Shown here: positions 11,906-15,120 of the stretch, one piece after another
Layout: the number at the start of each line of letters is the position of its first letter
Numbering within the stretch: the first letter of the stretch is position 1
Source of the DNA: Acidobacteriota bacterium
GTDB lineage: Bacteria > Acidobacteriota > Vicinamibacteria > Vicinamibacterales > CAVVIG01
Reading direction: 5' to 3'
Assembly (NCBI GenBank): GCA_003222395.1
Contig: QHWB01000044.1
Location: 1 to 64,000 of the forward strand
DNA: 64,000 nucleotides
Notes under the pieces: model-generated
The model's input: the letters and a program-made list of their open reading frames with translations, nothing else
The model's database searches: none
Told to the model about the DNA's origin: nothing
Translations under genes and position numbers: made by a program

Positions 11906-12631
11906 ATGAACAAAGACCTCGAGGGACTGATCGCGCTCCAGAAGCTCGACACCGCAGTGCACGACGCGCGTCATCGTCTGGCGGAAGAACCCGAGCGCGC
12001 GAAGGCGCTCGACGCGCGGTTCGAAGCGGCGAAGCAGCGGGTTGCCGACGCGAAAGCGCGCCTGAGCGAGAACCAGAACGCGCGCCGTGGAATCGAGAAG
12101 GACGTCGCCGTCCACCAGGGCCGCCTGTCGAAGTTCCGCGAACAGGCGATGGCGGTGAAGACGAACCAGGAGTACCACGCCGTCCAGAAGGAAATCGGCT
12201 TCGCGCAGGGCGAGATCAAGACGCTCGAGGACAAGATCCTCGAGCTGATGGTCGAGGCCGACGAGCTGAACGCGGCGGCGAAGCGCGCCGAAAAGGCGCT
12301 GGCAGACGAGCAGAAAGCCGTGGAAGCCGACCGCAAAGCGCTGCAGAACGAAACGACCGAGCTGAACGTGTCGCTCGAGCGCATGGGCCGCGAACGGGAG
12401 ACGCTCGCGAAGGGGCTCGACCCGGCCGCGCTCGCCACCTTCGATCTCGTGGCGAAGAAGCGCAACGGCATCGCCGTCGCCGAGGCGCGCGACGCCATCT
12501 GCACGATCTGCCACGTCCGCATGCGGCCGCAGGTGTTCAACAACGTGCGCCGCAACGACAGCATCATCCAGTGCGACAGCTGTCAGCGCATTCTCTATTT
12601 CGCCGCAGCCGTTGCGCAGCCGGCCCGTTGA
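11906..12631 (+). CDS. Coiled-coil protein with C-terminal C4 zinc ribbon
   Basis: This 241-residue protein of the C4-type zinc-ribbon (DUF164/CT398-like) family is a cytoplasmic protein of unsettled role, sometimes linked to flagella, secretion or nucleic acid metabolism. Residues 5-180 form a long antiparallel coiled coil rich in Ala, Glu, Lys and Arg. Residues about 197-235 contain CTICHVRMRP and CDSCQRILYF, the four zinc cysteines. Family members begin with the same DLEGLIALQKLD pattern, so ATG 11906 is right even though it lies directly after a terminator T-run and has no Shine-Dalgarno. The family is often next to RNase HI in Actinobacteria, as in mycobacteria. Here too the next gene carries an RNase HI domain. 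Confidence 0.85.
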   Translation: MNKDLEGLIALQKLDTAVHDARHRLAEEPERAKALDARFEAAKQRVADAKARLSENQNARRGIEKDVAVHQGRLSKFREQAMAVKTNQEYHAVQKEIGFAQGEIKTLEDKILELMVEADELNAAAKRAEKALADEQKAVEADRKALQNETTELNVSLERMGRERETLAKGLDPAALATFDLVAKKRNGIAVAEARDAICTICHVRMRPQVFNNVRRNDSIIQCDSCQRILYFAAAVAQPAR

Positions 12632-12659: not shown

Positions 12660-13775
12660 TTGAGTGCAGGCCGCTTGGTCGCGTACATCGACGGCGGTGC
12701 GCGGGGCAATCCAGGTCCCGCGGGCTTCGGCGTCCGCATCGAGCGGCCCGACGGCACGCTCGTCGAAGAATTCTCCGAACCGATCGGCACCGCCACCAAC
12801 AACGTCGCCGAGTACCGTGGCCTCGTCGCGGCGCTCGAATGGACGCGCGCGCACGGCTACGGAGAGCTTCACGTCCGTTCCGATTCGCTTCTGCTCGTGC
12901 AGCAGATGCTCGGCGCCTACAAGGTGAAGAATCCAGGACTGCAGCCGCTGCATGCGAAGGCGCGCGCGCTCGCGGCGGCGATCGGCCGCGTCACCTTCGA
13001 GCACATCGGCCGATCGCTGAACGCGCCCGCCGATCGCCTTGCCAACGTCGCCATGGACCGCGCGGAGGGCAAAGCCGCGAACGCGTCGCCTGCAGACGTG
13101 AAGCGAAACGATCTGTTCACTGCGCTCGAGCGCGACGTGCGGCTTCACGTCTACCGGCACTTCGTCGAGACGGCGCGTGCGCCGGATCTGAAGGGGATTG
13201 CCGCCGCGGTTGGCGCGGGCGAAAAAGAGGTCGCACCGGCGCTGCAGCGCCTCGCCGACATGCACGCGATCGTGCTCGCGCCCGCAACCCTGAACATCTG
13301 GATGGCGCATCCGTTTTCCGCCGTTCCAACGCCTTACCCTGTCGTCTCCGGATCGCGAACGTACTGGGCAAACTGCGCGTGGGATGCAGCCGGCGTGCTG
13401 TCGATCGTCGGCGCGGGCTCGTCGCGAACGCGCTGTGCCGACTGCGGTTTGGAGCTGACGATGACCGTCCGCGACGGCCGGATCGATGGTGACGCGGTCG
13501 TCCACTACGCGGTGCCGCCGCGGCGGTTCTGGGACAACGTCGCCTTCACATGAGCGACCCTGTTGCTCTTCAGGTCGGAGGAGCACGTCGATCGATGGTG
13601 CGCAGAGCGTCAGATGAGCAAGGGTGCGGTCGTGCCGCTCGAGCAGGTGTGGCGACTCGCGGGTCCCTGGTACGCGGATCGGCTGGACGAGCACTGGTCG
13701 CCTCGAACACCGGAGACGATGGAAAGAATTCTGCGCGAAGCCGGCCTCACCGGCGAGTTCTGGCGCCTGCGCTGA
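12660..13775 (+). CDS. RNase HI-like domain fused to MerB-type lyase, with in-frame TGA (probable selenocysteine)
   Basis: Read through TGA 13551-13553, the frame gives 371 residues from TTG 12660 (TTG 12612 is possible but would translate a dispersed repeat and overlap the previous gene). Residues 6-135 are RNase HI-like with the DEDD acids D11 (YIDGGARGN), E51 (NNVAEYRG), D75 (RSDSLLLV) and D125 (APADRLAN). Residues 150-371 are an organomercurial-lyase (MerB) homologue: an N-terminal winged-helix part, MAHPFSAVPT, then YWANCAWDAAG with C239 and D242, equivalent to E. coli MerB C96 and D99. The TGA is codon 298 in the context WDNVAFT-TGA-ATLLLFRSEEH, aligning with MerB C159. After it, 73 codons remain open with normal composition and match the family C-terminus. 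A SECIS-like hairpin follows. The alternative is a nonsense mutation or sequencing error splitting one gene into two pieces (12612-13553 and 13563-13775). No sel genes are in the window. Confidence 0.75.
13551..13590 (+). promoter_or_regulatory. Candidate bacterial SECIS element after the in-frame TGA
   Basis: After TGA (13551-13553), the bases CGAC (13555-13558) can pair with GTCG (13587-13590) as a lower stem. An internal loop follows, then an 8-bp upper stem TGCTCTTC (13564-13571) with GAGGAGCA (13578-13585), including one G-U pair, capped by the loop AGGTCG. The E. coli fdhF SECIS has apical loop AGGUCU. The loop GG begins 19 bases after the TGA here and 18 bases after it in fdhF. The position, stem and loop fit what SelB needs. 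The RNA is also coding sequence, so the match could still be coincidence. Confidence 0.6.
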
Positions 13776-13778
13776 AGC

Positions 13779-14633
13779 TCACCTCCGCCGCGACGCGTCA
13801 TCCGCGAAGCCACGTGAGGCACGGCTCGAAGCTTCATGCCCCTCCTCGCGGGCGCGAATCACGGCGGCCATTCTGCCGGCGTCTTTCCAGTCACGGCGGT
13901 ACGAGCACAGAACGTCTGGGTGGCTTGCCGTGCAAAGCTCCGCGTTGAAAATCCGATCCGCCGGCACGCCGGCCGATTCCAGCTGATCGCGCGCCGCCTG
14001 CCACCCATCGAACTGCCAGTGATCGGGCCGCGTGCCCTCGACGAACCAGCGCGCGAGCTGCTCGTTCGAGAAGTCCGCCTGTTCGAACCGTTCGCGCACA
14101 TCGCGATCGACTTCGTACCGCGCCGCGCTGATTGACGGGCCGATGGCGGCGACGAGCTCCGACGGGCGGCTGTCGAACGCGTGCCCCAGCATCTCGATCG
14201 TCTCCTGCGGCGCCCGCGCGGCCAGGCCCCGCCATCCGGCATGCGCGGCGGCCACGACGCCGGTGCGGCGATCGGCGACGAGCAGCGGCACGCAATCGGC
14301 GATCTGGATGGCGAGCGCGAGCGAGGGATCGTTGGACAGCACGATGTCGGCGTCCGGAAGATGGTTGACGTCGCGCAGCTCTCCGGTGCGCCGAATCACA
14401 GCGGACGCGCCGTGGACCTGATGAAGACGGACGAGTTTGGCGCGGCCGACGCCGATGGTTCGCGACACCTCGTCCCACGCGGCCGTGTCACCCGGCAGCG
14501 CCGATCCAAGGGTCCATGGCCGCGTCGTGAAGAGATGGCGCGCGAACGGTTCGAGCGCCGTGCAGACGAGGGCGGGTCCCGCGTCCGTGTCCGTCCAGCG
14601 AAAGCTCTCGTGAGGCTGCGGCAGAACCATCAT
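13779..14633 (-). CDS. pgeF: Laccase-domain purine nucleoside phosphorylase / muropeptide-associated oxidase (YfiH family)
   Basis: This 284-residue cytoplasmic protein belongs to the YfiH/PgeF family. Members have been described as copper-containing polyphenol oxidases, as purine nucleoside phosphorylases/adenosine deaminases, and as a peptidoglycan editing factor. The metal site is complete: HQVHG with His74, IADCVPLL with Cys114, and AAHAGWRGL with His131. The family also shows IGPSISAARYEV and the C-terminal CTASHPDVLCSYRRD. It ends 3 bases from the convergent RNase H-MerB gene. A C-terminal Ser/Arg-rich tail of about 20 residues is not part of the fold. Confidence 0.9.
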   Translation of the reverse strand: MMVLPQPHESFRWTDTDAGPALVCTALEPFARHLFTTRPWTLGSALPGDTAAWDEVSRTIGVGRAKLVRLHQVHGASAVIRRTGELRDVNHLPDADIVLSNDPSLALAIQIADCVPLLVADRRTGVVAAAHAGWRGLAARAPQETIEMLGHAFDSRPSELVAAIGPSISAARYEVDRDVRERFEQADFSNEQLARWFVEGTRPDHWQFDGWQAARDQLESAGVPADRIFNAELCTASHPDVLCSYRRDWKDAGRMAAVIRAREEGHEASSRASRGFADDASRRR

Positions 14634-14643
14634 TATTCAATAT

Positions 14644-14695
14644 GCGGCGGGGCCCCACCCCCGCCGCCTGTCGCACCTCGCCTTCGGCTCGGTGC
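14644..14695. other. Paired hairpins between pgeF and acpS
   Basis: GCGGCGGGG (14644-14652) pairs with CCCCGCCGC (14659-14667) over a CCCCAC loop. Next to it GCACC (14673-14677) pairs with GGTGC (14691-14695). The core GGGGCCCCACCCCC is shared, in reverse orientation, with the hairpin at 56686-56709. It lies between divergent genes and has no T-run, so it looks more like a dispersed palindromic element than a terminator. Confidence 0.5.
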
Positions 14696-14736
14696 GGATA
14701 ATCGATGCGGCTAGGCCGACAGTCAATCGAGGCATC

Positions 14737-15120
14737 ATGTCAAACATCATTGGACTCGGCCTCGACGCGACCGACATCGGTCGCATTTCGGACACGATCG
14801 AGCGGTACGGCGAGCGGTTTCTGAAGCGAATCTTCACCGAAGGCGAAATCGCATACTGCCTGCGCCGGCGCGTGCCCGCTATTCACTTTGCGGGGCGCTT
14901 CGCGGCGAAGGAAGCGACGATGAAGGCGCTTGGCACCGGCCACTCGCAGGGCGTCCTGTGGCGCGACGTCGAGGTCGTCCGCCGCGGCGGACCGCCGCAA
15001 CTGGTGTTGCACGGCGGCGCCGGCCGCCGCTTCGAGGCCATCGGCGGCCGTTCCTCGCTGCTCACCATCACGCATTCCGACGAGCTCGCGATGGCGCAGG
15101 TCATGATCCTCGGCGCCTGA
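14737..15120 (+). CDS. acpS: Holo-[acyl-carrier-protein] synthase
   Basis: AcpS transfers the 4'-phosphopantetheine arm from CoA to apo-ACP for fatty acid synthesis. The 127-residue protein shows the two family motifs, GLGLDATDIGRI with metal-binding Asp10 and GRFAAKEATMKALG with Glu59. The C-terminus has LTITHSDELAMAQV. ATG 14737 is chosen because it has CGAGG just upstream and gives the family N-terminus (SNIIGLG); an in-frame codon at 14692 would add 15 unlikely residues. It is divergent from pgeF. The usual neighbours (pdxJ, nnrD) are absent. Confidence 0.93.
   Translation: MSNIIGLGLDATDIGRISDTIERYGERFLKRIFTEGEIAYCLRRRVPAIHFAGRFAAKEATMKALGTGHSQGVLWRDVEVVRRGGPPQLVLHGGAGRRFEAIGGRSSLLTITHSDELAMAQVMILGA

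Follow-up and report, generated by a model that had tools for sequence, protein, structure and literature searches.

A predicted MerB-fold selenoprotein encoded behind an RNase HI domain in an Acidobacteriota genome

The frame at 12660-13775 of the window (the whole 64,000-nucleotide stretch of Acidobacteriota DNA analysed here) is best explained as the gene of a selenocysteine-bearing MerB-fold protein, a reading to which we assign a probability of roughly 0.88. The in-frame TGA at 13551 very probably encodes selenocysteine (Sec), and we infer that Sec is actually inserted at codon 298. An earlier note on this DNA had proposed selenocysteine at this codon. That proposal is supported by a TGA in 53 of 59 homologues, by the position of the codon on the Cys159 column of the organomercurial lyase MerB, by a conserved hairpin and by the sel genes of the genome. 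The features of the gene are collected in Table 1.

Table 1. Features of the Sec-MerB gene in the window
Feature	Position	Strand	Details
Complete frame: RNase HI domain followed by MerB-like domain	12660..13775	+	371 residues, TGA counted as one residue
RNase H domain upstream of the TGA, residues 11-130 (Pfam RVT_3)	12690..13049	+	69.5 bits, cut-off 21.6; activity predicted
MerB domain across the TGA, residues 219-338 (PF03243)	13314..13673	+	82.5 bits, cut-off 27; predicted MerB fold
C239 codon, counterpart of MerB Cys96	13374..13376	+	Alignments
D242 codon, counterpart of MerB Asp99	13383..13385	+	Alignments
In-frame TGA, read as selenocysteine 298, counterpart of MerB Cys159	13551..13553	+	Homologue column and alignment
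Proposed SECIS hairpin	13564..13585	+	Stem 13564-13571 with 13578-13585, loop AGGTCG 13572-13577
Final stop of the frame, TGA	13773..13775	+	

The open frame that begins at 12660 closes at 13550 with WDNVAFT, and the TGA follows directly. Downstream of it the frame continues unchanged for 73 residues (ATLLLFRSEEHVDRWC). Both points agree with the earlier description of the frame, which had also given it a TAA-type end near 13775; the final stop is in fact a TGA. A longer version of the frame, starting from a TTG at 12612, is possible. The codons past the in-frame TGA evolve as coding sequence. When the window is compared with L027, its closest relative (65% identical), Ka/Ks in these 73 codons is 0.18, indicating purifying selection, with values of 0.27 for the MerB part before the TGA and 0.17 for the RNase H part (90 aligned codons). 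In the shifted frame past the TGA Ka/Ks is 1.38, and identity to L027 drops to 18% beyond the final stop.

These values bear on the alternative that the TGA is a plain stop following an RNase HI domain and a MerB remnant, with the remaining sequence being either a decaying tail or part of a second, overlapping ORF at 13550-13948. TGA is the normal stop of the neighbouring genes at 11906-12631, 13779-14633 and 14692-15120, and the ATG of the second ORF overlaps the in-frame TGA (ATGA). We nevertheless consider this alternative very improbable, as Ka/Ks past the TGA is low in frame and above 1 in the shifted frame, MerB similarity continues in frame past the TGA at 29.7 bits, and 52 other distinct homologues carry the same TGA.

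Read through as Sec, the frame contains a MerB domain. The Pfam MerB model scores 33.8 bits on the part before the TGA alone and, as given above, also exceeds its cut-off on the part after it. A match on both sides of the TGA makes the read-through frame more than a chance occurrence. AlphaFold predicts the structure of the read-through domain with a mean pLDDT of 96.6. In a structure comparison (VIA-align), this model gives a Z of 19.0 to MerB2 (5c17), 14.6 to 15.2 to MerB crystal chains and 9.6 to a MerB NMR model. Rows with Z under 6 were DNA-binding-type matches and were left unused, and the MerB chains stand out from them. The read-through domain is thus predicted to have the MerB fold.

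The active-site residues of MerB can be placed on this domain. C239 and D242 (C89 and D92 in the numbering of the 221-residue domain) fall on the columns of MerB's catalytic Cys and Asp, so the earlier assignment of these residues to Cys96 and Asp99 was right. When a 39-member profile was aligned with solved MerB chains, the TGA column fell on Cys159, seen as the Cys of F-C-S-H-V-H-F-F in the C160S structure 3f2g, and on the equivalent Cys of MerB2 (5c17), bearing out the further claim that Cys159 corresponds to the TGA. The protein therefore has the catalytic Cys96 and Asp99 of MerB, and lacks Cys159 as a Cys, with a TGA at its column. The Cys, Asp and Sec columns are all kept in 38 aligned sequences. 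Because this alignment was deliberately limited to the window and TGA-bearing sequences, the invariance of its Sec column is no test of that column.

A wider set of homologues does speak to what the column holds. Relatives were collected from 100 related genomes (13 with a match), from a GTDB collection (40 loci), from 297 genomes of the phylum searched with the MerB model (19 with a match) and from plasmids (8 records, 5 examined). Among the 59 distinct homologues that reach the column, five have Cys and one has Trp in addition to the 53 with TGA; TAA and TAG are both absent. This tally leaves out duplicates (L041, L085, L086, L091, L094, L092), loci that end short of the column (L036, L037, L039, L040, L079, L080) and 12 loci lacking a match to the query, including other MerB-like and double-Sec ones. 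Judged by record titles and tree labels, TGA at this column occurs in Acidobacteriota, Gemmatimonadota, Chloroflexota, Thermomicrobiota and Actinomycetota. L055 and L076 are gammaproteobacterial MAGs that cluster tightly with Gemmatimonadota, which may reflect mis-binning. Of the TGA rows, L038, with an internal TAG, and L106, with a broken frame, look decayed. The family is patchy, being absent from most of the 100 related genomes and the 297 genomes of the phylum, and no relative was found in the viral contigs scanned. This recurrence of the TGA also decides against a true TGC or TGT that was misread in sequencing or assembly. The source assembly is in 118 contigs, which leaves some room for such an error, but the same codon stands at this column in the 52 other distinct homologues, taken from other records, and we regard an error as next to impossible.

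The six rows with a sense codon are informative in their own right. L107 and L108 are Cys rows annotated as MerB proteins on plasmids. The nearer Cys rows, L032, L104 and L105, have CxxC in place of the CxxD of the Sec forms, so that Asp and Sec seem to have been exchanged together. A tree puts these three Cys forms inside the Sec rows with a support of 86; it is a quick tree with SH-aLRT only, and the placement is a hint only. L033 (genome G050) has Trp at the Sec column. It also has Ser at the first catalytic Cys, and is therefore probably not an active lyase.

A conserved hairpin just after the TGA is likely to be the SECIS element. The strongest synonymous constraint among 50 TGA-bearing sequences (a set without L031, L038, which also holds the TAG, and the broken L106) falls on codons +5 to +9 after the TGA. 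There, CTC is used for 25 of 26 Leu, TTC for 50 of 50 Phe, CGG for 47 of 49 Arg, TCG for 46 of 47 Ser and GAA for 39 of 49 Glu, compared with backgrounds from the same genes of 0.40, 0.77, 0.30, 0.41 and 0.34, respectively. Nominal P values at these codons range from 2e-6 to 1e-22 and treat the rows as independent, which they are not. Weaker deviations occur upstream of the TGA at codon -1 (ACC in 32 of 47, P 1.7e-4) and at codon -6 (P 7.1e-4). The constrained codons form a stem of CUCUUC with GAAGAG, closed by C-GGUC-G.

From the outside in, the six inner pairs of this stem form in 41, 51, 51, 51, 50 and 45 of 51 distinct sequences, the outermost with 8 two-sided changes. At least five of the six form in 52 of 53 TGA rows, the exception being the broken L106, and GGTC is found in the loop of 48 of the 53. 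The window itself forms seven of the eight pairs counted, and its loop, AGG TCG, retains GGUC. RNAalifold keeps five pairs, two of them with two-sided changes. The controls for this hairpin were mixed. Taken alone, the window hairpin has a folding energy no better than that of shuffled sequences (z -0.27, 69 of 200 as good); the signal comes from comparing homologues. In a shuffle control on pair counts, the observed value was matched by 34 of 500 shuffles for the percentage paired, 33 of 500 for pairs with two-sided changes, 268 of 500 for further pair types and 0 of 500 for the covariation score. The SECIS of E. coli fdhF has a short stem with GGUC in its apical loop. The window hairpin resembles it in both respects and in lying about 20 nt past the TGA, and differs from it in the sequence of the stem.

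The hairpin also helps to distinguish Sec insertion from near-cognate read-through, in which the TGA would be read as tryptophan or cysteine without SelB. The one Trp and five Cys homologues could be taken as a sign of the residue that is inserted. However, conservation of the hairpin is confined to rows with TGA: the six Cys and Trp rows form 2 to 5 of the 8 pairs (the Cys row L104 still has the letters GGTC), the genome has Sec genes, and the Trp homologue is the one that also lacks the first catalytic Cys. Near-cognate read-through is accordingly given very little weight. On the conserved TGA, Ka/Ks and the hairpin, we rejected the assembly error, the plain stop, near-cognate read-through and the overlapping second ORF.

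By gene content, the organism can make selenocysteine. The earlier note had named the sel genes as a check on its proposal, and all were found: SelA (456.7 bits), SelB (313.8 bits, over cut-off), SelD (344.1 bits, with an in-frame TGA of its own) and a tRNA-Sec that scores 62.5 bits against a gathering score of 47 and has the anticodon UCA (ARAGORN). Such genes are common among the relatives. SelB is over cut-off in 75 of 100 of them, including all eight genomes with TGA at the column, so the presence of sel genes is needed for the selenocysteine reading and discriminates little. Of 24 genomes that carry the gene in some form, 22 have SelA over cut-off; G197 has none and G062 a partial match. 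In the genome's own selD (L023 around 1532, G000:C26), a hairpin whose loop differs can be made out by eye after the TGA. The host SelB may thus accept more than one loop.

The RNase H domain, on which the earlier note is silent, lies wholly upstream of the TGA, and its region is also matched by Pfam RNase_H (31.1 bits, cut-off 25.8). A stop at the TGA would therefore still yield a whole RNase HI. If Sec is inserted as proposed, the selenium supply would affect completion of the MerB part alone, with RNase HI being made regardless. Among 47 loci, tallied by one short motif, the fusion occurs only in the window and in L027/L041. The linker between the RNase H and MerB domains differs between the window and L027/L041.

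In a sister clade, the codons of both catalytic Cys positions are TGA. Four of the MerB matches from the 297 genomes of the phylum have two TGAs, one giving U-x-x-D at Cys96/Asp99 and one at the Cys159 column. A profile built from these four found seven copies spanning both sites in 6 of 396 genomes (loci L117-L122 and L130; genomes G334, G212, G284, G197, G395 and G444), and all seven have both TGAs; the G197 copy lacks the first 24 positions. Two further fragments in the 396 genomes carry the second TGA. A 19-base core containing GGTC, TCTTCTGGTCAGAAGAACA, follows the second TGA and is identical in nine of nine sequences. The hairpin after the first TGA is a different one and is weakly supported: a single compensatory change occurs, in one sequence of the four, and 126 of 500 shuffles match this. 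The double-TGA gene of G284 has selA, a selD fused to a CMD/AhpD-like domain and selB behind it on the same strand (L131 1246-7640, G284:C19), and another selA lies on contig C23. G212 carries both single- and double-TGA forms; only the single-TGA form was seen in the window's genome.

The mechanism of MerB suggests what the Sec form may do. In MerB, the catalytic cysteines bind the organomercurial and, together with Asp99, pass a proton to the leaving carbon. Selenium binds mercury strongly. We propose that SelB and tRNA-Sec would decode the TGA as Sec, steered by the hairpin just downstream (a bacterial SECIS), to give a MerB-fold protein in which Sec at the Cys159 position works with Cys239 and Asp242. 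By analogy with MerB, an organometal, most probably an organomercurial, would be bound by the selenolate and the thiolate, a proton would go to the carbon, and the carbon-metal bond would break. Sec in place of Cys159 would provide a softer and more acidic ligand. Organomercurial lyase mimics that contain selenium have been reported to react more quickly than the corresponding sulfur compounds (PMC11639659). We lean moderately towards carbon-metal bond cleavage as the reaction; mercury as the substrate is our inference from the analogy with MerB.

The genomic context counts against this reaction. Upstream of the frame lie a coiled-coil/zinc-ribbon protein gene and genes that, by eye, we take to be dnaG and rpoD; a gene for a laccase-domain protein (PF02578) lies downstream on the opposite strand. 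No mer genes were found among the neighbours within the window or among the neighbours inspected at other Sec-MerB loci. A search for conserved neighbours found shared families covering at most 6 of 38 loci, among which close relatives are well represented. A DoxX/MauE-like gene (L064 2534-2968, L077 2519-2965) directly precedes Sec-MerB at two loci, and the cluster it belongs to covers 4 loci. MerA is not over its cut-off in the genome, the best match scoring 339.2 bits against 454.45 (G000:C25:104659-106056).

A MerB-fold selenoprotein might instead act on something other than an organomercurial: it could cleave or bind an organometal of tin, lead or arsenic, carry metal, or serve in redox. 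The lack of a MerA over cut-off, flanking genes that vary by locus without mer genes among those inspected, and the assignment of the Sec-bearing MerB relative SaoL to an organometallic system (PMC13188914) make another organometal a serious rival. Against it, the Cys, Asp and Sec columns are kept in the 38 sequences, the predicted fold is that of MerB, and the MerA test rests on a strict cut-off only. We judge a substrate other than an organomercurial to be the less likely case, though one with a substantial minority share of the probability.

The closest known relatives of the Sec-MerB protein are MerB and SaoL. With MerB (PF03243; 3f0o, 3f2f, 3f2g, 1s6l; MerB2 5c17) it shares the predicted fold and the Cys96, Asp99 and Cys159 columns. 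Unlike MerB, it has a predicted Sec for Cys159 and sits behind RNase HI, without mer neighbours or a MerA over cut-off, and it scores 25.8 bits with the MerB equivalog NF009710, below the cut-off of 193. SaoL (NF040728), a MerB-like organometallic lyase of the SAO system, is likewise related to MerB and predicted to contain a single Sec (PMC13188914). With the SaoL model, whose cut-off is 140, the window reaches 32.6 bits, and it has T-U (Thr before the TGA) where the motif listed for SaoL is CU (PMC13188914). No SAO genes were recognised beside the window's gene. At E 0.001 or better, 36 of the 39 members of set A4 match the SaoL model.

The earlier note had known of no described selenoprotein of this family. 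This needs correcting, as the MerB-like selenoprotein SaoL is already in print. Table 1 of a 2026 inventory of 119 prokaryotic selenoprotein families and subfamilies has one MerB entry, which is SaoL (PMC13188914). Among the literature matches listed, neither the window's Sec-MerB family nor a double-Sec MerB is mentioned; the papers of Haft and co-workers on SaoL and later families may mention the family. Rather tentatively, at somewhat less than even odds, we suggest that these genes encode an unrecorded, multi-phylum set of MerB-fold selenoenzymes that break carbon-metal bonds, with a thiol-selenol grade and an all-selenium, double-Sec grade for organomercury, and with a fusion to RNase HI that makes completion of the protein selenium-dependent.

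If this is true, the family would be a natural test of the role of selenium in carbon-metal cleavage, at one site versus both, and an organometal-processing gene would have gone unrecognised in soil and sediment phyla. Ordinary annotation can cut such genes at the TGA. One annotated TGA-bearing record, a merB on a plasmid of Rubrobacter radiotolerans (L106, 2935-3204), is an example: the annotated gene stops exactly at the TGA, and its frame looks broken further on.
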